IMG/VR virus record: IMGVR_UViG_3300010938_000066
Span: 1-44,891 of that record
Direction: 5' to 3' (one strand)
From: a virus
DNA: 44,891 nt
Both the position numbers and the translations under genes were made by a program. Under the pieces are notes generated by a model. It made no database searches and was not told where the DNA came from. It saw only the letters and a list, made by a program, of their open reading frames with translations. This document shows positions 3,220 through 44,891 of this stretch, in pieces (the first letter of the stretch is position 1; each line of letters opens with the position of its first letter).

Positions 3220-3998
3220 TCTGGGTCCTCCGAGTACTCTTCGTCCATTAGGACCGTCCCCTTTAGCAAATGTTTCATACACCTCTTGAAGCAGTTTCGG
3301 TAGAAGTCGAGCGTTGAAGATACTCTTAGTCTGGGCCCCGAATTACACTCCAGGACCAAGAATTGACCATCTACCATGCCAATATCTAGGGCACCAAAGT
3401 CCAGACTAAGGGCGGACAAAGTATCAAGTGCCAGTTTGCCTATCGCTGACCATTCTCCGTGAACTAGAGCCGGATCGGGATATTTGAAAGAAGATCCTAA
3501 GCGGTTATTTCTCTGCCAACCTGGGTTGTCTGGCAGAGGAAACTTTTCCCTGACTATGAAGTCGAATTTGTTACCCACGATTACGGCGTGCACTCGGAAT
3601 TCTCTATCAAAGGGGATATATTTTTGGGCATACAGTTCTGGGGAAAGTACGTTATGTCCGCCGTGATGCTTATCTCTCTTCAGCACTAGTGGGGGCAAAA
3701 TGGTTTCTGGCACCGGGATGTTGTGATCTTTGAGCAGTTGTACCATTTTCACTTTGCTAGCCACATTCTTCACAACTTGAGGAGGATTCAAAGTCACAAC
3801 TTCACAGTATAAGGGAACTCTGTCCATGTGCGGGATAGGCAAAGATGACCCCCAGTTGATAAGCAACACACCGATCTTCTCATCTTGGGCAAGCGGAGTA
3901 CAAGCCGCGTCCTCAAGGAAGTTTTCCCATCTTGATCCTCCCCACACATGAAAAGCACCACCGGCAACTCCCGATCTATACTCCCTGACGAAGATCAT
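3216..3998 (-). CDS. ATP-grasp ligase-like protein (260 aa)
   Basis: This has the hallmarks of the ATP-grasp fold, which activates a carboxylate as an acyl-phosphate and joins it to an amine or thiol. Visible motifs are LVLKRDKHHGGHNV (Lys and flexible loop, residues 105-118), QKYIPFDREFRVHAV (125-139, nucleotide/metal contacts), DFGALDIG (D205) and VLECNSGP (E217, N219), the typical C-terminal Mg-binding pair. The start at 3998 has GGAGG upstream; the frame extends to 4160 without a better site. It overlaps the amidotransferase gene by 23 nt. With its two upstream neighbours it forms an amide-bond-forming cassette like those reported in phiEco32-type phages. Substrate unknown. Confidence 0.8.
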   Translation of the reverse strand: MIFVREYRSGVAGGAFHVWGGSRWENFLEDAACTPLAQDEKIGVLLINWGSSLPIPHMDRVPLYCEVVTLNPPQVVKNVASKVKMVQLLKDHNIPVPETILPPLVLKRDKHHGGHNVLSPELYAQKYIPFDREFRVHAVIVGNKFDFIVREKFPLPDNPGWQRNNRLGSSFKYPDPALVHGEWSAIGKLALDTLSALSLDFGALDIGMVDGQFLVLECNSGPRLRVSSTLDFYRNCFKRCMKHLLKGTVLMDEEYSEDPE

Positions 3999-4845
3999 GG
4001 TATCCCTCCTCTCCCAAAAAGGCGTCATAATGCATTTGGCATAATGCCATTCCCTCGGCGCGCTTAGTTGCTGGCTTGAAACACATATCACATAACTCAA
4101 AATCCGAAGGCGTATACTTTGCGAGAGGAAGGTGATAGTTTGACACAACTGAGTATTCACGATAGGGAGTTTTTCCTAGATCTTTGGCTCCCTTACGGAA
4201 GATTAGGTAACTCTTTCCTGGCTTGACATTTGCAGAGGGACATGTTTCTCGCCAGAGGCTGATATCCCCGAACTTCATAGGAATATATTTTGCCTCCCCA
4301 CATCGCTCCGACACCACTAGCAAGCCGGTACGAATATAGAAAATATCCACTCCGATTGTTCTACTTGCCAATAATAGCCTATCCGGATATTTCAGAGAAA
4401 TGGCCAAGAAGACTCCCGACCAACCTAGATCCTTGAGTCGGGAGATGTCCAATTCACCATCTTCAAGTATGCGGGCAATAGCACGACTATCAACCGCATC
4501 TTCTTCATCAGTGATAATCTCTTTATAACTCGACACACTGCCATTGTGCACCACGATTGCCTTACCTTCGACGATCGGATGGCAATTCCTTACAGAGATA
4601 CTACCAACAGTAGCCATCCGGGTATGTCCCAACACTAAGTTGGCCTCCCCCAAAAGTGGGCGGACTTGATCGGCGACTTTTGAGAAGGCTTTAGTCCAGC
4701 GGTAGATTTTTACTGCATCATCTTTGGCCACTAGGAGGCCGAAGGAATCATCTCCTCGATTTTCAAGGTGCCCCAAGGAGCCCATGATCTGGTCCACTCC
4801 CTCTTCCTTGAGCGGCTTGCCGATATACCCCAAGATTCCGCACAT
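3976..4845 (-). CDS. Class II glutamine amidotransferase (289 aa)
   Basis: Ntn-hydrolase glutaminase that would release ammonia from glutamine. The nucleophile is Cys2 after Met removal (MCGILGYIG). Other family landmarks are GHTRMAT (R76), the oxyanion HNGSV (N101, G102) and D119 in VDSRA. Unlike asparagine synthetase or GlmS it has no synthetase or isomerase domain; instead the tail carries C252, C255, C269 and H272 (CDMC, CQMH), a probable zinc knuckle. GGAGG precedes the ATG at 4845. It sits between the GS-like amidoligase and the ATP-grasp gene, so its ammonia is probably used by one of them. Confidence 0.85.
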   Translation of the reverse strand: MCGILGYIGKPLKEEGVDQIMGSLGHLENRGDDSFGLLVAKDDAVKIYRWTKAFSKVADQVRPLLGEANLVLGHTRMATVGSISVRNCHPIVEGKAIVVHNGSVSSYKEIITDEEDAVDSRAIARILEDGELDISRLKDLGWSGVFLAISLKYPDRLLLASRTIGVDIFYIRTGLLVVSERCGEAKYIPMKFGDISLWRETCPSANVKPGKSYLIFRKGAKDLGKTPYREYSVVSNYHLPLAKYTPSDFELCDMCFKPATKRAEGMALCQMHYDAFLGEEGYHDLRQGV

Positions 4846-8287: not shown

Positions 8288-8617
8288 ATGGAAGCCAATC
8301 CTCAGACAACTGAAAAATCTATCTCCTTGATCATTATCACTCCCAACTTGCAAATGCGGAGACTCCTAAGAGAATTCGCCATGTATACTAGCGACTCTAC
8401 AGTGAGATTGGTTGCCGATGAAATACCGGAAGGCTCTGACTACGGAGTATTTATCATCTCCGATTTGGGAGTCTTCGTCTTGCGCGATAATAACATTTCA
8501 TTTGACCCGCTCAGCCATATTCGGAGAATAATTATGGATGCTTTGCCACTGCAGACGGAGGTTGAGTCACTCTTGCAATCCCTTGCCGAGAGAGAAAAGA
8601 CGGACACAATACAGTGA
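8288..8617 (+). CDS. Hypothetical protein (109 aa)
   Basis: AAAGGGGGAAAC precedes the ATG at 8288. Alternating strands and helices (SISLIIITPN, YGVFIISDLGVFVL) suggest a small alpha/beta domain. No catalytic motif or membrane segment is seen. Family not recognised. It lies in the rightward operon, 16 nt after the previous gene. Confidence 0.6.
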   Translation: MEANPQTTEKSISLIIITPNLQMRRLLREFAMYTSDSTVRLVADEIPEGSDYGVFIISDLGVFVLRDNNISFDPLSHIRRIIMDALPLQTEVESLLQSLAEREKTDTIQ

Positions 8618-8654
8618 GATAGCCGTTTGGGAGCCGAGGAGAGGAGGCTAATAT

Positions 8655-8981
8655 ATGAAAGTACTGGTATTTCAGGGAAGGAGCAATGCCCCACTGCACT
8701 TACCTGGCGGGTTTACTCTGAAGACAGGCCGATGGAGCTTCACCTTGGAAGGGCCGGAATGGGATTTGTGGTCTACAGCAGATGCCGCCTACACAGAACA
8801 CAATAACTGCTTTGTGGCTGTTGGAGAAAAGGGGAGATGCTCTTCGGTCCCCGCACCTGATGAGATATGGCCAAGGGGACGACAATACCTGGAGAATGAA
8901 GGTATCTTTTACGGGGCGGATTGGTACACTTGGACTTGGGACCCCGAAAGGCGATTATGGGTAAAGGGAGAGAGGGTTTAG
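8655..8981 (+). CDS. Hypothetical Trp-rich beta protein (108 aa)
   Basis: GAGGAGAGGAGG precedes the ATG at 8655. The protein is rich in tryptophan, glycine and beta-strand-forming residues (WSFTLEGPEWDLW, GADWYTWTWDPERRLW). Family not recognised. It is the last protein gene before the tRNA cluster, ending 13 nt before tRNA-Gln. Confidence 0.6.
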   Translation: MKVLVFQGRSNAPLHLPGGFTLKTGRWSFTLEGPEWDLWSTADAAYTEHNNCFVAVGEKGRCSSVPAPDEIWPRGRQYLENEGIFYGADWYTWTWDPERRLWVKGERV

Positions 8982-8994
8982 GAAAGCCGACTTA

Positions 8995-9068
8995 TGCGGG
9001 GTCGTCTAATGGTAGGACGGGAGCCTTTGGAGCTCCATATCTGGGTTCGAATCCTAGCCCCGCAGCCA
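8995..9068 (+). tRNA. tRNA-Gln (anticodon UUG)
   Basis: A full cloverleaf can be drawn: acceptor TGCGGGG/CCCCGCA, a D-arm with GTC/GAC stem, anticodon stem GGAGC/GCTCC with loop CTTTGGA (anticodon TTG at 9027-9029), and T-arm CTGGG/CCTAG with loop TTCGAAT. The discriminator is G and CCA is encoded. The first base U and discriminator G fit glutamine identity. It reads CAA codons. Confidence 0.93.
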
Positions 9069-9085
9069 AATGGCAAGTCTTTTCT

Positions 9086-9172
9086 GGAGGGTCTGTCTGA
9101 GGGCGGTAGTGGCAGGGAGCCTACCCACGGGTAGTAGCATGCCTAGGGGCATGGTGTAAGGGCAGACCCTCT
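9086..9172 (+). ncRNA. Structured RNA between the two tRNAs
   Basis: About 87 nt closed by a perfect 9-bp stem, GAGGGTCTG (9087-9095) with CAGACCCTC (9163-9171). Inside are hairpins CTACC/GGTAG (9121-9125/9130-9134) and CATGCC/GGCATG (9138-9143/9148-9153, loop TAGG). GGTAG at 9105-9109 can pair with the same CTACC, so two folds compete. There is no TTCGAAT-type T-loop, so it is not a normal tRNA. No open frame of note covers it. It is probably co-transcribed with both tRNAs. Confidence 0.6.
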
Positions 9173-9181
9173 CGTGATCTT

Positions 9182-9257
9182 AGGCCCGTAGCTCAGCGGT
9201 GAGAGCACCGGTCTTATAAACCGGAGGTCCTTGGTTCGAATCCAAGCGGGCCTACCA
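9182..9257 (+). tRNA. tRNA-Ile (anticodon UAU)
   Basis: The cloverleaf is complete: acceptor AGGCCCG/CGGGCCT, D-arm GCTC/GAGC, anticodon stem CCGGT/ACCGG with loop CTTATAA (anticodon TAT at 9215-9217), variable AGGTC, T-arm CTTGG/CCAAG with loop TTCGAAT, discriminator A and encoded CCA. UAU would read the AUA isoleucine codon directly, which most bacteria read with a CAU anticodon modified to lysidine. Confidence 0.92.
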
Positions 9258-9273
9258 CAAAAGGAGGTCAAGC

Positions 9274-9882
9274 ATGAGGCCTAAGATAGTCGTAGACATT
9301 GACGGAGTTCTGTACGACTGGCACTCTACCGTGCGGTTTCTCATGATGAAATACCGTGGGATCAGCCTGCCGGACTTACCTCAGCTATTTGACTGTTGGG
9401 ATGGACACACCCGGTACCTAAGTCCCGATGACATTGCATGGCTTTGGACAGTTGGAGTAGAGAAGGGGCTGTTCCGGCATGGGCATGTCTTGAAAGGATC
9501 TATACAGGCCCTAGAGCAGCTCAGCGAAGTGGCCGATATTGTCATCGCCACACATCGACCTGCTGGTGCAGCTAATGATACTCTCTCTTGGTTAGCCTTT
9601 CATCGGGTGCCCTGTAAGGAGGTTCATCTACTGTATCATGAGGAACCCAAGTGGGTTATACCAGCAGATGGGATTGTTGATGACAAGCCCGAGAATGTGC
9701 TATCATGGGCTAATGAACGACCAGAAAGGCCCCGCTTGGCTGTTCTTTGGAGGCGTCCTTGGAATGAGTCGGTGACTCAAGACCAATTATCCCAACTCGA
9801 TCCTTGGGTTTTGCACACCAACAATTGGGAAGAGGTGATACGATATGCCAGAACAATCTGGCGGTCGCAAGGGACAGAGTGA
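9274..9882 (+). CDS. 5'(3')-deoxyribonucleotidase-like HAD phosphatase (202 aa)
   Basis: HAD-fold hydrolase: VVDIDGVLYDW (D8, D10) is the nucleophile/acid motif, ATHRP supplies the motif II Thr, and VDDKPENV (about residues 137-144) is the C-terminal metal-binding acidic pair. The length and YDW extension match phage relatives of 5'(3')-deoxyribonucleotidases, which dephosphorylate dNMPs. AAAGGAGG precedes the ATG at 9274, 16 nt after tRNA-Ile. It overlaps the next gene, another nucleotide enzyme, by 38 nt, so a joint role in adjusting dNTP pools is likely. Confidence 0.75.
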   Translation: MRPKIVVDIDGVLYDWHSTVRFLMMKYRGISLPDLPQLFDCWDGHTRYLSPDDIAWLWTVGVEKGLFRHGHVLKGSIQALEQLSEVADIVIATHRPAGAANDTLSWLAFHRVPCKEVHLLYHEEPKWVIPADGIVDDKPENVLSWANERPERPRLAVLWRRPWNESVTQDQLSQLDPWVLHTNNWEEVIRYARTIWRSQGTE

Positions 9883-10177
9883 ATACCGTACCGATCTTCT
9901 CCCGTGGGATGTAATTCTTGAGGATGCCAAACTATATGGGAGGGGGGCACAAAAATACGAGGAGAGAAACTGGGAAAGAGGGTATAAGTGGAGCCTATCT
10001 TTTGCAGCTCTTATCCGACATGCAATCCAGTTTTGGCTTGGCGAGTCCTATGACAAGGAGACAGGATGCCATCATATGGCGGCAGTTCGGTTCCATGCCG
10101 CCGCCCTAGAAAGGTTTGAGCGGGAGCATCCAGAGCTAGATGACAGGCCAAAACTTAAGAATACGGTGATTCCATGA
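9845..10177 (+). CDS. dATP/dGTP diphosphohydrolase-like protein (110 aa)
   Basis: Resembles the phage dATP/dGTP diphosphohydrolase domain (DUF5664, MazG-like all-alpha fold). Landmarks are RTDLLPWDVI near the N-terminus, YGRGAQKYEERNWERGY, ALIRHAIQFWLGE, and YDKETGCHHMAAV, which bears the metal-binding acidic and His residues. The family cleaves purine dNTPs to dNMPs and pyrophosphate. GAGGTGAT lies about 8 nt before the ATG at 9845. The stop overlaps the next start (ATGA at 10174). Confidence 0.7.
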   Translation: MPEQSGGRKGQSEYRTDLLPWDVILEDAKLYGRGAQKYEERNWERGYKWSLSFAALIRHAIQFWLGESYDKETGCHHMAAVRFHAAALERFEREHPELDDRPKLKNTVIP

Positions 10178-10914
10178 GCAAAGTGATCATTTTCGATATC
10201 GAGGCTACAAACCTCGATGCCGACTTCGGCTATGTCCTATGTTTTGGCTATAAGGAATGTCGGCTGACCTCTGACGGACTAATCGAGGGCCCTACCAAAG
10301 TCTTGACAATACATGATTATCCAGGAGAGCGTGTTACCGATGATTCTAAACTAATGGCTAGGGCCCATGAAGTTATATCTGAGGCCGACGTGCTGGTAAC
10401 GTATTACGGTAAAGAGTTTGACCTTAAATTCTTAAACACTCGTATGATTTTATCTGGCCTACCGCCCTTGCCGCCTTTAGGAGAATCACACCTTGACCTG
10501 TATTACACAGTCAGAAACAACTTCACTCTGCACAGCAAGCGGTTGGGCAATGTAGCGGAGTATCTCCGATGTCCTATAGAGAAGACTCAGGTCAAAGGCA
10601 ATTACTGGGTCGAGGCCATGGCCGGAGACCCCAAAGCCCTTGAGTATATCAAGGACCACTGCTACAAGGATGTCGAGATTCTCTATTGGCTATTTCTTAC
10701 CTTGAGGCCATATATTCGCAAGTTCCCGAGGGTATGGCCAATAGATCAAGAGAAGTGTGCCTCGTGTGGGCATCCAATGCAGCGTAGAGGCAGGCATGTT
10801 CGTGGGGCCAGCCTATATCATCGACTATGGTGTCCAAAATGTGGAAGATGGGACTACTTGCCGCTAAGCAAGGAAGAGAAACGCGCCTTACTCGGCGCGA
10901 CCGGCGGGAATTAA
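10174..10914 (+). CDS. DnaQ/RNase H-like 3'-5' exonuclease with zinc ribbon (246 aa)
   Basis: The N-terminal domain has the DEDD exonuclease order: IIFDIEATNLD (D8, E10; Exo I), TYYGKEFDLKFLNTR (Exo II) and HCYKDVEILYWLF (Exo III acid). It is most like the predicted RNase_H_2/YprB-type single-strand exonucleases. The C-terminus adds a two-knuckle zinc ribbon (CASCGH, then CPKCGRW). The start overlaps the preceding stop. Since the polymerase gene has its own proofreading domain, this is a separate repair or RNA-processing nuclease. Confidence 0.75.
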   Translation: MSKVIIFDIEATNLDADFGYVLCFGYKECRLTSDGLIEGPTKVLTIHDYPGERVTDDSKLMARAHEVISEADVLVTYYGKEFDLKFLNTRMILSGLPPLPPLGESHLDLYYTVRNNFTLHSKRLGNVAEYLRCPIEKTQVKGNYWVEAMAGDPKALEYIKDHCYKDVEILYWLFLTLRPYIRKFPRVWPIDQEKCASCGHPMQRRGRHVRGASLYHRLWCPKCGRWDYLPLSKEEKRALLGATGGN

Positions 10915-11528
10915 GGAAGGCATTACTTAAAGTTTTGTCCCGCATCTTGGTGGTGCCATATGAGCTCAGGCATCGGAAAATCCGCGATGTCAATGTATGG
11001 GTTCCAGTGGTCATCTTTGACTTCGAGGAGCAGGGGTTCTTCTATGGCCCACTTAAGAATGCAGTAGGCCGTACAGTCTTTCCCTTGCTAGATCCAACAG
11101 AGGAATATCCTTTGCCTATAATATGCATTGACTCTCGGCTGCCCAAGGGCTACCAAGAATGGGTTATCAGGCACGAGGTAGTTCATGCGGAAGATTGGTT
11201 TAGAGTCTGTGCGCAAATCTCTGGAGAGATAGATCGCCAAGCTCTGGTACAAAAACTTAAGTTAGGGGATATATGGGATGAGATGAAGGCTGAGTTGCTG
11301 GCTCTTCGTGACTTCGATCCCGGCCTATTCCGGACTGATCAGTTGCCTTGGCAATCTTGGGAGAGTCATGTAGATCTTCTACTTCCCCTAAAACGGTACA
11401 TGCGCGCTAGAGATGGCAGAGAGCAGGCCGAGCGTCTAATTCACTTTCTGAGGGAGGAGATCGAGAATGCCCGCAAAGAAAGGAAATCTAAGGGATCTGC
11501 TCCAGTTTCTGAATCTCCCATTTCGTGA
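10827..11528 (+). CDS. HEXXH-motif protein, zincin-like (up to 233 aa)
   Basis: The central RHEVVHAEDWF is an HEXXH zinc-hydrolase motif in a helix context, preceded by a beta strand (PLPIICIDSRLP) and followed by long helices. The order resembles small IrrE/ImmA or SprT-type zincins, but the family is not firmly recognised. The start is uncertain: ATGs at 10827 and 10848 lie deep in the preceding gene without ribosome binding sites, and a TTG at 10935 with AAGGAAGG 14 nt upstream would give 197 aa. It overlaps the primase gene by about 60 nt. Confidence 0.6.
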   Translation: MVSKMWKMGLLAAKQGRETRLTRRDRRELRKALLKVLSRILVVPYELRHRKIRDVNVWVPVVIFDFEEQGFFYGPLKNAVGRTVFPLLDPTEEYPLPIICIDSRLPKGYQEWVIRHEVVHAEDWFRVCAQISGEIDRQALVQKLKLGDIWDEMKAELLALRDFDPGLFRTDQLPWQSWESHVDLLLPLKRYMRARDGREQAERLIHFLREEIENARKERKSKGSAPVSESPIS

Positions 11529-13389: not shown

Positions 13390-13953
13390 ATGATTTGGGA
13401 AGTGCTATTGGAGCTGGCTAGGCGATTCCTGCCTACTCCACAGGATCGCCAAGAGTTTGAGAAATTGATCATGGAAGCCAAGGCCCAAGAGGCCGAGGCT
13501 AGGGCCAAAGAGCGGGAGCAGATGACACGGGAATTCATCACATTGTTGGAGACTACTCAACCCACTCCCGATCGAGTTTATGTCTGGGCCAATACCCTTA
13601 TTGCTCTTGTCAGGCCTACAGTTACTCTGCTGATCATTGGCTCTGTGATTTGGCTGCCAGAGCGGTTGAAAGAGTTTCTGTCAGCGGCCAGTGCCAGCCC
13701 GACTGGGTTTTACCTAATCATGGCCCCGGTCCTATGGTGGTTCTTTGGGCGAGACATCAATAAATTCTTGGGCCGGGATGGCCTTGGGGTTATCGGGGGC
13801 GTCATTTATAGGAATGGTAATGGCAATGGATCGGGAAAGGGCGTAATTGAAAACGTGCGCCCTACTACAGCTAAGCCGCTCCCGCCAAAGCCTTCTGCTC
13901 TGCCATCTAATCCCGAAGGCGAGTATCGCGAGAGAGGGGGTCGTATGCCATGA
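13390..13953 (+). CDS. Putative holin-like membrane protein (187 aa)
   Basis: A charged coiled-coil N-terminus (AKAQEAEARAKEREQ) precedes two hydrophobic segments, about residues 64-92 (ALVRPTVTLLIIGSVIW) and 104-118 (FYLIMAPVLWWFFGRD), then a Gly/Asn- and Pro-rich basic tail. The RP in the first segment and the layout recall the three-TM holins of gene-transfer agents, though only two clear segments are visible. AAGGAGG precedes the ATG at 13390. A holin inside an early operon would be unusual; another membrane role is possible. Confidence 0.5.
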   Translation: MIWEVLLELARRFLPTPQDRQEFEKLIMEAKAQEAEARAKEREQMTREFITLLETTQPTPDRVYVWANTLIALVRPTVTLLIIGSVIWLPERLKEFLSAASASPTGFYLIMAPVLWWFFGRDINKFLGRDGLGVIGGVIYRNGNGNGSGKGVIENVRPTTAKPLPPKPSALPSNPEGEYRERGGRMP

Positions 13954-14291
13954 CTGAAGAGGTAAAGCTAAGTCCGCCTGAGCTGAGGCTTCCTGAGTCC
14001 TTTGAAGTCATGCCTTTAGGGGATCGGGTTATAGTTAAGCCCGCCGAGGCCCGAGAGAAGACTAAGGGTGGAATCTACTTGCCTGAGGATGCTCGCCGCC
14101 GGCCCCAATTTGGGAAGGTAGTGCGAGTTGGAGAGCAAGTTAAGAGCACTAATATTCGAGAGGGACAGTTGGTCTTCTTCCCCCAATACGTCGGTTTGGA
14201 GGTGAAGTTGCCTGATCCGGAAACAGGCGAGGAAGAGGTCTTTCTGCTAATGGAGGAAAAGAACATACTAGGCTACCTAAGGGAGAAGTAA
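13950..14291 (+). CDS. GroES-like co-chaperonin (113 aa)
   Basis: Cpn10 family: MPLGDRVIVKPAEAREKTKGGIYLP is the conserved first strand and mobile-loop region, followed by GKVVRVGE and GQLVFF. Length is slightly above the typical 95-100 aa. It would cap host GroEL as T4 gp31 does, to fold the capsid protein or another phage protein. No GroEL gene is present in the window. The ATGA overlap at 13950 couples it to the preceding gene. Confidence 0.9.
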   Translation: MTEEVKLSPPELRLPESFEVMPLGDRVIVKPAEAREKTKGGIYLPEDARRRPQFGKVVRVGEQVKSTNIREGQLVFFPQYVGLEVKLPDPETGEEEVFLLMEEKNILGYLREK

Positions 14292-39623: not shown

Positions 39624-40499
39624 TTAGTAACCCGTCATCGGGTCTCTTGATTCTTCACCTTCATCCCAACGTTTTCGATACTTCTTTCGTTCTTCTGGTG
39701 GCAAATCATGGATATCAACAATTGGAGTAGGGACTCCAGTAGGAGGCGCAGGTTTGCTTAGAGTCAGTTGGTGCGAGAGGGCATCGATAAGGTCATCATG
39801 CCCTAGTTCTGCCCCCGGCATCCACTCCTTTAGCTCCCGCTCCAATTCAGGGTCTATGCCTTTGCACAGGAAAATCCGACCTTCGGCAAAGAGAGGTACT
39901 AAGCCTTCTATACGAGCTCTTTTACTTCGACCGGACCCTGACTTTAGCTCGACCAAGCGAGTTCCAACTATCCCCTCATTGGCAAAAACATTCCGGAGGA
40001 TATCCTTGAGGACCACTTGGAAGGCTACAGCTTCAACACCCACCGTTACAGGTTTGAGGCGGCGGACCTCTTCAACTACAGCTTGAGTAATGTTGTCTAC
40101 GCCCCCCTTCACTCGTCGTGCCCCTAAAACATACCATATTCCTTGGGTTGTAGTCCCAACTGTCACAATGCCCGTATAGTCCGATTTCTTCTTATCTGAA
40201 ATGGCCGGGTCTATGGCCATTGTGACCCATACATGATATTCTCGGCCTGTGCCCTTATCTACAATTCTTGTATAGTCATCGGCCTTGAAGAGGACATCTG
40301 CGTAACGAATCCACTCAGGCCTGAATCGTTGTTCCTCGGGAGGTATAGGCTCATTTAGATAAGAACACGAAAAGAAATATGGGTCTCGCTCTCGTTGGAC
40401 CTCAAGGAATTCGCGGCTTAGCCTTTGCGGAAACCATAATTCCCCGCCTGGCAATATGGCAGGTCGGATCATGACCTTCCATGTGTGCTCGGAGGTCAT
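39624..40499 (-). CDS. Terminase large subunit, nuclease part (291 aa)
   Basis: RNase H-like packaging nuclease: MAIDPAISDKKKSDYTGIV (D97), VGVEAVAFQ (E156) and GHDDLIDAL (D235/D236/D239) form the acidic metal site that cuts concatemers. The N-terminus (WKVMIRPAILPGGELWFP, then RERDPYFFSCSYLNEP) is the part that normally joins ATPase and nuclease in a single TerL. Here it starts at an ATG overlapping the ATPase gene stop (ATGA, 40496-40499). No ribosome binding site is seen, so reinitiation or a frameshift is implied. Confidence 0.85.
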   Translation of the reverse strand: MTSEHTWKVMIRPAILPGGELWFPQRLSREFLEVQRERDPYFFSCSYLNEPIPPEEQRFRPEWIRYADVLFKADDYTRIVDKGTGREYHVWVTMAIDPAISDKKKSDYTGIVTVGTTTQGIWYVLGARRVKGGVDNITQAVVEEVRRLKPVTVGVEAVAFQVVLKDILRNVFANEGIVGTRLVELKSGSGRSKRARIEGLVPLFAEGRIFLCKGIDPELERELKEWMPGAELGHDDLIDALSHQLTLSKPAPPTGVPTPIVDIHDLPPEERKKYRKRWDEGEESRDPMTGY

Positions 40500-41170
40500 A
40501 GGTATTCACAGGGCTCATGGTCCATGATATACTTGTAGACATCTTCTGTATGCCAGCGGGTCCCTACTATAATGAGCTCGCCATCCGGCTCCAGGATGGG
40601 ATGAAGCGTCTTATAATGTAGGATCACCCGCTGGCGCATCAAGTCAGTCGTAATATTCTTTTCATCGTGCAAGTCGTCGGCGATGATGATGTCGTAGTGG
40701 CCGCCCGTCCGGGGGGAATCTACTCCGCCCGTAGCAATAGATGGCTCCTTGAGTGGCCGTGTCCTCTGCGGTATGGTCACCGCATCTTCCTGCCACCCAG
40801 GGATATTTTTCCATTCCCCGTATATTTCCTTGAAACGATCGTTGTACTCGATGTGCCATTTTATCTCCGAGAGTATCATCTTCGCTCGATCGAGCGTTTT
40901 GCTATCAAGCAGGATTCTCAAATCAGGCTCATAAGCTAGCCGCCACAGCGGATAACCTATCGAGACAATGCTGGTTTTAAAGCTCCCTCGGGGCAATAGA
41001 AACATTTTGTAACGGGAGGAGCGGTCTGTCAGCAGCTTAACGATAGGCCCGTGTACGCCCTCCACAATATCCACATAACCCAAGACATCCTTAAGGAAGC
41101 TTAAAAAATCCTCACTGTATTTGAGTCTTTCCAGCTTGGCTCTCTGCTGTATGAGACTGTAGACTCCCAT
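40496..41170 (-). CDS. Terminase large subunit, ATPase part (224 aa)
   Basis: Packaging motor ATPase: Walker A-like LLPRGSFKTS (residues 58-67), Walker B IIIADDLHDE (161-170, with the catalytic Glu/Asp) and coupling motif VGTRWHTEDVY (202-212). The frame stops just after the point where the linker to the nuclease begins. Typical TerL is one protein of 450-550 aa; ATPase plus nuclease here total 515 aa. It overlaps the small-subunit gene by 59 nt. Confidence 0.85.
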   Translation of the reverse strand: MGVYSLIQQRAKLERLKYSEDFLSFLKDVLGYVDIVEGVHGPIVKLLTDRSSRYKMFLLPRGSFKTSIVSIGYPLWRLAYEPDLRILLDSKTLDRAKMILSEIKWHIEYNDRFKEIYGEWKNIPGWQEDAVTIPQRTRPLKEPSIATGGVDSPRTGGHYDIIIADDLHDEKNITTDLMRQRVILHYKTLHPILEPDGELIIVGTRWHTEDVYKYIMDHEPCEYL

Positions 41171-43163: not shown

Positions 43164-43895
43164 TTAGTTCACCTTTACCAGCCCTCGTAGGCGGTCTATG
43201 GGAACAGCATACGCCACTTTATCCCGCTCATAGAGACCAAACATTATCTGAATTCCTGTCCGAGGAGCTTTGAGCTTATGAGCACGAATTACACCAACAA
43301 CTTTGCCTTCGTAATTGAAGACTGGTGCTCCGGACTGTCCCGGATTGATAAACATACCAATCTCAAGTTCTCCTTCAGAATACTTATCCTGAGAATAGCC
43401 CAAGAAGGGGCCGGTTACGACATTGAGAACACGGTTACCGTAACCGACTGTAGAAAGATTCTCTCCGACTGAAGGAGTATAGTCCCAAGCGATCTTTAGG
43501 ACAGGCAGCTTCCAGAGAGACCAAAACTTGAAGACCATGAGATCATAACCTTCATCGCCCCTCGACATCCCAATTACCCAAGAGGCAATGAACTGACGGG
43601 GATACCAATAGGCTCCCCACATTCTCAGGGCGCGAGATTCGAAGGTTATGTTTTGGCTGTAGCAGTGCCCAGCGGAGACCCCAGTATTCACATAGGCAGG
43701 TTCTTCTCTCCCATACCTGCCGGTCACGAAGACTTCCTCGGATCTAATCAAGAAGGCCGTGCACAGGTGGTCGCCATCAAGATGAAGTTTACCGATGGCC
43801 CCTATGTCCCAGTCCCATTGGCTCGCAGGGCCCGACCCCGCCCCCAATAGGACCAAGGCTAGCAGTACTAGAAGGACCTTCCAATGTCTTTCCAT
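43164..43895 (-). CDS. Secreted trypsin-like serine protease (243 aa)
   Basis: S1-type protease: VSAGHC (H77), GDEGYDLMVFK (D118) and NPGQSGAPVF (S188) supply the catalytic triad, in the usual order, with GEGPVVG-type strands after the Ser. A hydrophobic N-terminus (LLVLLALVLLGAGSG) is a likely signal peptide, so it should act outside the cytoplasm, e.g. on cell-surface proteins. First gene of the late operon. The start at 43895 lies only 7 nt after the -10 of P4, so the mRNA would be leaderless; no ribosome binding site is present. Phage-encoded secreted S1 proteases are uncommon. Confidence 0.75.
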   Translation of the reverse strand: MERHWKVLLVLLALVLLGAGSGPASQWDWDIGAIGKLHLDGDHLCTAFLIRSEEVFVTGRYGREEPAYVNTGVSAGHCYSQNITFESRALRMWGAYWYPRQFIASWVIGMSRGDEGYDLMVFKFWSLWKLPVLKIAWDYTPSVGENLSTVGYGNRVLNVVTGPFLGYSQDKYSEGELEIGMFINPGQSGAPVFNYEGKVVGVIRAHKLKAPRTGIQIMFGLYERDKVAYAVPIDRLRGLVKVN

Positions 43896-43902
43896 GGCCC
43901 AT

Positions 43903-43931
43903 ATTATACCATATTTTTGCCCATTTGTCAA
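43903..43931 (-). promoter_or_regulatory. Promoter P4, leftward, late operon
   Basis: Perfect consensus on the minus strand: TTGACA (43926-43931), 17-nt spacer, TATAAT (43903-43908), preceded by TGG (extended -10). The -10 is 7 nt before the first codon of the protease gene, placing the transcription start at the ATG. It is the only promoter found for the 27-kb late operon. Confidence 0.85.
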
Positions 43932-43966
43932 GGGGGTAAGACAAAAAATTTTTAGGAGGAGGGGAC

Positions 43967-43995
43967 TTGACAAAAGCCCAGAAATGTGGTATAAT
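43967..43995 (+). promoter_or_regulatory. Promoter P5, rightward
   Basis: Perfect consensus on the plus strand: TTGACA (43967-43972), 17-nt spacer, TATAAT (43990-43995), preceded by TGG. The predicted start is near 44002. No open frame follows; the transcript would be the hairpin-rich region to the right. P4 and P5 are divergent, 35 bp apart. Confidence 0.85.
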
Positions 43996-44001
43996 ATGAG
44001 T

Positions 44002-44512
44002 CGACTGGCGTAGAAGATACGTCAGCAGGATTCCTCCCCGGTGTTGTGGATTAGATCCCAACATCGGGCCCATTGCCTCATCCTCCTGCTAAGAGGGTAG
44101 CCTTGGACCGGTACGAGCGGTAGGTGGGTCGCCCGGTCATTCCTCAGTTACATACATCTTCCGTATGTAAGTGAGGAAGCTGGGGATAGGTTCCTAAGAG
44201 ATGGAGTTACCGAGTCCGGTCAGGCGGTAATATATATTGGGGGAACTATTCCCAAAAACAGGTCAACATTAGTCAACACTGGGGAAGACTGACTGAGGTC
44301 AGGCTTCCCCCCAAACTTCAATAAACCCAAATCTCAACCACAAATCATCTTGACTATCAACCCATGGTTGCTCAAAAGAGCAACCCCGTGTCAACAGTTC
44401 TTCAACCAAGAATCAACTCTCCAAAAGTCTAGAATATAATATTATGGCTTGGTGGTTGAAGAACTGTTGACTTTTGTTAACCTTGGGTTCCTTACTGGGG
44501 GCGAAGCCCCCC
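44002..44512 (+). ncRNA. Candidate large structured RNA downstream of P5
   Basis: About 500 nt without a sizeable open frame but with a chain of strong hairpins: CTGGCGTA/TACGTCAG (44005-44025); GCAGGA/TCCTGC (44025-44030/44084-44089) enclosing a 14-bp hairpin (44037-44068); GACCGG/CCGGTC (44106-44138); a 15-bp hairpin with one mismatch (44140-44178); TACCG/CGGTA (44208-44229); a 12-bp nested stem GGGGAAG/CTTCCCC (44281-44310); GGTTGCTC/GAGCAACC with AAAA loop (44366-44385); a 19-bp inverted repeat (44390-44471); and GGGGGC/GCCCCC with GAA loop (44497-44511). It begins at a consensus promoter. The family is not recognised; an ornate large phage RNA, a packaging RNA or an origin are possibilities. 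Confidence 0.65.
44390..44471. repeat. 19-bp perfect inverted repeat
   Basis: GTCAACAGTTCTTCAACCA (44390-44408) is the exact reverse complement of 44453-44471, with a 44-nt AT-rich loop. GTCAACA also occurs at 44262 and 44273 nearby. It could be an RNA stem, a replication origin feature or a resolution site. Confidence 0.85.
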
Positions 44513-44564
44513 TAGCTGGAACCCCCAAAGCATATCCCAATCATACACAGGTTAGTCAAGGGTT
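44513..44564. other. Spacer without recognised element
   Basis: Between the last hairpin and the first repeat copy there is AT-rich sequence with no open frame or clear signal. Confidence 0.4.
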
Positions 44565-44666
44565 TAAGTTTCTCAAATCGTGCCCTAGGGTTTTTCCCCT
44601 GCCCCCTGGGTAAAGATATCTAGGATCTAGATATCCTGCCCATAATGATATTATATCCTAGGGATA
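44565..44666. repeat. 102-nt direct repeat, copy 1
   Basis: Starts TAAGTTTCTCAAATCG and ends TATCCTAGGGATA. It contains CCCTAGGG and the interrupted palindrome GATATCTAG/CTAGATATC (44615-44623/44627-44635). Nearly identical to copy 2, one base shorter. Between the copies lie CTTTAGTG twice in tandem (44686-44701) and ACTAAAG. AT-rich with dyads, like a replication origin or regulatory array. Confidence 0.8.
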
Positions 44667-44788
44667 AATCCTGGGAATGGGCTTACTTTAGTGCTTTAGT
44701 GAACTAAAGAACCCATTATATCGGGCATATCATGGGCATAATAGAGAAAAAATCTTGGGTTTGGGCAGGAAATGGGGTCTGTTCCTGA

Positions 44789-44891
44789 TAAGTTTCTCAA
44801 ATCGTGCCCTAGGGTTTTTCCCCTGCCCCCTGGGTAAAAGATATCTAGGATCTAGATATCCTGCCCATAATGATATTATATCCTAGGGATA
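44789..44891. repeat. 102-nt direct repeat, copy 2, at the window end
   Basis: Matches copy 1 with one extra A (AAAAG versus AAAG before the palindrome) and runs to the last base of the window, 224 bp downstream. A repeat ending exactly at the contig edge suggests the assembly stopped in a longer array or at a circularisation overlap. Confidence 0.8.

Follow-up and report, generated by a model that had tools for sequence, protein, structure and literature searches.

The window, that is, the whole stretch of viral DNA analyzed here (44,891 bases, 49.7% G+C), encodes an SU10/P22-like portal, a Terminase_6C protein, a terminase small subunit, a phiEco32-like ligase, a PolA-type DNA polymerase, and a primase/helicase. 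Judging by this gene content, the virus is a short-tailed phage. The minus strand carries the late genes, which run leftward between 43.9 and 16.7 kb. The replication genes lie between 6.0 and 16.5 kb on the plus strand, and tRNAs lie at 8995-9257, about 35 kb on the record from the region described below. The terminase large subunit is seemingly encoded in two overlapping minus-strand frames (39624-41170), either a real split or a frameshift: the frame at 39624-40499 carries an RNase H-like domain and that at 40496-41170 has no Pfam match. A Cpn10 chaperonin is encoded at 13950-14291 on the plus strand; its nearest genome relatives, about 43% identical, belong to the Chloroflexales (Roseiflexus), a similarity that gives a weak hint of the host but does not suffice to identify it. 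At the left end, positions 1-51 consist of A11, G13, and C27 homopolymers, which are probably an artifact of sequencing or assembly at the contig end. A second ORF-poor, strongly folding stretch lies nearby (697-1093; minus-strand z of -5.6 at 801), and a 48-nt repeat at 820-867 is copied ca. 1 kb away at 1843-1890.

Near the right end, a perfect sigma70 promoter on the plus strand (43967-43995) comprises TTGACA at 43967-43972, a 17-nt spacer, and TATAAT at 43990-43995, with a TG upstream of the -10 box and a predicted start at ca. 44000-44003. It faces a noncoding region, as the first-pass annotation had described. That annotation, however, took it for the best promoter of the phage spent alone on noncoding DNA, and this does not hold: it belongs to a symmetric divergent pair, whose second member, a mirror-image perfect sigma70 promoter on the minus strand (43903-43931, read from 43931 to 43903), starts the late, packaging-side operon. 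The mirror promoter, which links the putative RNA to that operon, had been overlooked. These two are the perfect promoters of the whole window, against 0.05 expected by chance, and their 33-nt units form an inverted repeat, 85% alike. An A6T5 tract (43943-43953) is centered within 1 bp of the midpoint (43949) between the two -35 boxes, a position where the distal UP subsite of either promoter could sit; it may possibly serve both promoters as a shared UP element. On the minus side, the first gene of the packaging-side run (43164-43895, minus strand) encodes a trypsin-like protein of 243 aa with an apparent signal peptide (Pfam Trypsin_2, E value of 2.9e-10), and M15 peptidase and terminase genes come after it. 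Its ATG lies 7 nt past the -10 box, and since the minus transcript would begin at or beside this codon, the mRNA is apparently leaderless.

On the plus side, the longest frame wholly within 44003-44480 has 29 aa on the plus strand and 36 aa on the minus strand, in agreement with the earlier description of a region without open frames; a 54-aa TTG frame (44449-44613) overlaps just its end. The predicted minimum free energy of 44003-44480 was -180.8 kcal/mol, compared to -135.4 ± 6.5 for shuffled sequences (z of -6.9), and none of 100 shuffles was as stable. A slightly longer segment, 44001-44520, gave a z of -6.2, and the 200-nt plus-strand windows at 44001 (z of -5.85) and 44351 (z of -7.43) exceeded all 438 background windows (lowest, -5.63). 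Relative to shuffles, the plus strand was weakly favored over its complement (2/60 for the whole region and 17/200 for the 5' domain). The putative RNA would begin with a compact multistem 5' domain (44003-44256, plus strand; MFE of -107.1, z of -4.15) that opens with an 8-bp hairpin. The predicted fold includes a 10+4-bp stem, a 7+8-bp stem with one mismatch (44139-44175), and a stem built on GGGGAUAGGUUCC/GGAACUAUUCCC, among others. A G-poor, C/A-rich linker follows (44311-44363, one G in 53 nt), and then a 19-bp perfect stem with arms at 44390-44408 and 44453-44471 and 44 nt between them. This stem and the CTTTTGTT after it (44390-44480, plus strand), which received no terminator score in the scan, may mark the 3' end. 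The strong stems noted at first are thus present, the 19-bp one exactly as claimed and further ones within the fold, whose stability is beyond chance. A plain terminator array, named beforehand as one result that would speak against a functional RNA, is not what we found, as the scan detected no plus-strand terminator-like site in the region and Rfam gave no match.

The Rfam covariance search that had been suggested left the region an orphan. No family matched it at gathering or at permissive thresholds (E ≤ 5), where just chance microRNA-type hairpins and rliH appeared; the covariance models of GOLLD, ROOL, and pRNA gave no match, as the first reading had anticipated. Nor did we detect a DNA homologue among phages and plasmids (distant blastn), viral contigs (exact 18- to 23-mers), or genome contigs (20-mer), and 400 genomes from the phylum of the Cpn10-matched Chloroflexota (Roseiflexus) MAG yielded matches in six genomes at E ≤ 0.01, about what chance would give. 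Relatives sought through the terminase, portal, polymerase, and trypsin-like proteins comprised one fragment of 98 to 99% identity (L003), which stops short of the region; all others showed ca. 20 to 32% identity or nothing. The locus L007 has iterons (GTCAACCGTTACATAACCGTTACA and similar repeats) and long hairpins at 530-1250 (fold z of -13.7), upstream of a Cpn10-like gene and packaging genes. In the unannotated record of Mastigocladus phage CHP58 (L040), the long stretch at 8554-11239, upstream of the terminase, is poor in genes and contains repeated palindromes of the GCCGCGGCT type.

The same stretch carries signals at the DNA level. Nine copies of TCAAC/GTTGA, partly spaced by 10 to 11 bp, form an array at 44257-44480 that takes in the G-poor linker. 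There are nine copies in 230 bp, compared to 100 in the whole record, and no other local k-mer cluster in the record is as strong, end homopolymers aside (4e-9 per test, with roughly 1e5 tests for 5-mers). The cluster loses weight because the inverted repeat forces two of the nine copies and because so many k-mers were tested. Downstream, an ORF-free tract (44565-44891) contains AT-rich palindromes, and a direct repeat of 103 nt occurs in it twice (44565-44666 and 44789-44891). The record ends within the second copy; IMG/VR classes it as "linear," and its last base need not be the end of the genome. Because the phased array, the palindromes, and the repeats lie in the same region as the putative RNA, this region is likewise a candidate for an origin or for a packaging or control site.

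To look for the same architecture elsewhere, we searched viral contigs for back-to-back perfect promoters 20 to 50 bp apart. At least 120 contigs had this geometry, a count that is silent on the frequency of imperfect pairs. Of these loci, 80 were fetched, and 25 of the 80 have a near-leaderless terS-like gene, of one protein family, starting at one promoter half and an ORF-poor arm in front of the other. Two of three tested members of the terS-like family matched terminase PHROGs, and the 13 GenBank phage records with a match were without exception HMO-2011/HTVC103P-like, most of them annotated as terminase small subunit. The arms opposite this gene are conserved between loci (blastn) and had a mean fold z of -4.3 (23 arms long enough to fold, together with that of the window), versus -1.4 for the gene arms. 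Rfam gave no match in 17 of these loci. Two pelagiphage isolates, HTVC103P and HTVC115P, show this layout as well: it lies at the right end of each deposited genome, and the arm carries no annotation in either. In HTVC103P, one of the two promoters scores 11/12. The twin promoters lie between terS and the unannotated ORF-poor arm at 4239-4820 of the HTVC115P locus (L212) and at 3310-4104 of that of HTVC103P (L213), and further such loci include L096, L103, L112, L121, L142, L146, and L157, among others. Two other families of small genes that look leaderless (48 to 82 aa; e.g., L099, L107, L109, L113, L128, and L156) also begin at such twin promoters, and one member weakly matched a D5-like transcriptional regulator. 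We found no paper on the marine arm or on a noncoding RNA in HTVC103P-type pelagiphages, and a pelagiphage transcriptome paper deals with other phage types and makes no mention of noncoding or intergenic RNA.

Four hairpins are preserved in six related marine arms, with compensatory changes in the stems. In their alignment, 82.9% of the cells in predicted stems were paired, versus 73.2% after shuffling, and 17 versus 6.7 had changed on both sides; none of 500 shuffles reached either figure, although the kinship of the six sequences inflates these counts, the structure came from this very alignment, and DNA palindromes would yield like values. These arms share a conserved core, CTGGTTAACACT..AAAATGTAT..TTAGTATATATA..GGGGG. 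A common RNA structure for the core was considered and rejected, with three pairs only: it is conserved as DNA without RNA pairs. Homology between the arm of the window and the marine arms was likewise rejected, as nhmmer searches with the core and blastn and nhmmer searches with the arm gave no hit there. From these comparisons, the window and the HTVC103P-type phages have an architecture in common but not its sequence. When examined for that architecture, the window showed all of its elements: the twin promoters, a leaderless-looking packaging-side gene, and an ORF-poor arm. Both groups have a consensus sigma70 pair, a leaderless or near-leaderless packaging gene in a minus-strand late module, and a hairpin-rich arm. 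However, the marine arms are AT-richer and carry the conserved DNA core, which a profile search misses in the window, and the first gene is terS in the HTVC103P-type phages and trypsin-like in the window. The window does contain TATATATTGGGGG (44231-44243, plus strand), the sole TATATA-N0-5-GGGGG of the record, which lies 235 nt past the -10 box on the transcribed strand and resembles an element found at ca. 110 to 260 nt in the marine arms, a resemblance chosen after the fact.

Given the promoter, the absence of open frames, and the fold, rightward transcription into a structured untranslated RNA is likely, and 44003-44480 probably specifies a new orphan structured RNA. The functional RNA proposed by the first-pass annotation therefore stands in one part, the structured untranslated transcript being well supported by sequence, and falls in the other, the argument from a lone promoter. 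As for its role, our tentative preference, short of an even chance, is that this RNA of about 480 nt works mainly in cis at an origin-like region. In ColE1 RNA II and the transcription-dependent origins of T7 and T4, a strong promoter sends a folded transcript of ca. 500 nt into an AT-rich palindromic region; in T7 the DNA polymerase is of the PolA type and a phage RNA polymerase does the transcription. The window likewise has a strong promoter directed into an AT-rich, repeat-bearing region, but no test of sequence relation was positive, and the transcribing enzyme would be that of the host, in contrast to the phage enzyme of T7. We favor the cis-acting RNA because two perfect promoters, divergent and inverted, adjoin an ORF-free stretch with a fold excess and the TCAAC cluster, and also because a PolA-type polymerase and a primase/helicase are encoded and the HTVC103P-type phages show the same architecture and retained pairing. 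The promoter pair, the lack of frames, the fold excess, the sequence arrays, and the PolA-type polymerase gene were computed directly. The TATATA-GGGGG element counts for little here, since it was chosen post hoc and the marine-core profile misses the region.

A trans-acting large RNA of the ICP1/GOLLD/ROOL kind is rather unlikely: an abundant and stable particle, perhaps oligomeric, that would act on host or phage factors. The most abundant transcript of phage ICP1 is a noncoding RNA of ca. 800 nt in ORF-less space (PMC7567579), and the strong promoter, the size, the compact hairpin-first 5' domain, and the fold excess of the window all fit this precedent. Both would be large noncoding phage RNAs from an ORF-less intergenic space; that of ICP1 was seen by RNA-seq, whereas the one of the window, at about 480 nt, is predicted from its sequence. 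GOLLD and ROOL are large, highly structured, phage-encoded RNAs of unknown function, GOLLD often lying near tRNA genes and many of its members exceeding 800 nt (PMC12286853). The putative RNA resembles them in being large, structured, and phage-encoded, but it is smaller, matches neither covariance model, and lies ca. 35 kb from the tRNAs at 8995-9257; this, together with the absence of any Rfam match or detectable relative, argues against such a role. The pRNA of phi29 is, like the putative RNA, noncoding and close to packaging genes and the record end, but no Rfam model matched the window, and its RNA would be about 480 nt long. Phi29-type pRNAs measure 120 to 174 nt. A phi29-type packaging motor was rejected, the window having a Terminase_6C nuclease domain (RNase H-like) and a Terminase_2 small subunit.

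About equally unlikely is a DNA element alone, in which the palindromes and repeats are an origin, a packaging site, or a regulator-binding site and the rightward transcript is incidental. The spacing of the TCAAC array at 10 to 11 bp, the downstream palindromes and repeats, and the conservation of the marine core as DNA without RNA pairs point in this direction, as do the distant relatives L007, CHP58, and vir526, in which the corresponding position is taken by dissimilar ORF-free regions rich in palindromes or iterons. However, a perfect promoter faces a domain whose plus strand outfolds its complement relative to shuffles, and the marine arms keep their pairing through compensatory changes, although palindromes in DNA would give the same counts. 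A structured 5' leader (attenuator or antitermination) of an operon past the record end is improbable: the record does stop 890 nt downstream, in a repeat, but those 890 nt hold no plus-strand gene, and the left end of the record, next on a circular map, has minus-strand genes. An antisense regulator of phage mRNAs is very improbable, since despite the many hairpin loops and the known antisense phage RNAs (discussed in PMC7567579), the longest part of 44003-44480 that is complementary to other parts of the record spans 13 nt, compared to 11 to 13 for control segments.

If the RNA acts in cis, host RNA polymerase with its main sigma factor would start in both directions from the symmetric twin promoter. 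Leftward transcription would give an apparently leaderless mRNA for the late, packaging-side genes, and rightward transcription an untranslated RNA from ca. 44003 to 44480, with a folded 5' domain, the G-poor linker, and the 19-bp 3' hairpin. This RNA would act on the control region through which it is transcribed: transcription over the TATATA-GGGGG element, the phased TCAAC array, and the AT-rich palindromes may open or prime a replication origin, the folded RNA may protect it or time its opening in the manner of ColE1 RNA II or the T7/T4 origins, and the PolA-type DNA polymerase of the phage would extend the RNA primer. In this scheme we infer transcription itself, both RNA ends, the stability and role of the RNA, and any link to replication.

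On a broader and more speculative level, podoviruses that depend on host RNA polymerase might share a control module in which a symmetric sigma70 promoter starts a leaderless packaging-side gene and a structured RNA that starts or licenses replication or packaging, the window and the HTVC103P-type phages carrying independent versions of it; we consider this rather unlikely. If true, it would be a previously undescribed control module of podoviruses. Large noncoding RNAs of phages are mostly without an understood function. Here the promoter of the putative RNA is physically tied to that of the packaging-side operon, and a similar layout recurs in phages of cultured SAR11 bacteria, so that a long-standing question becomes testable, namely, whether the rightward RNA exists and has a part in replication or packaging.
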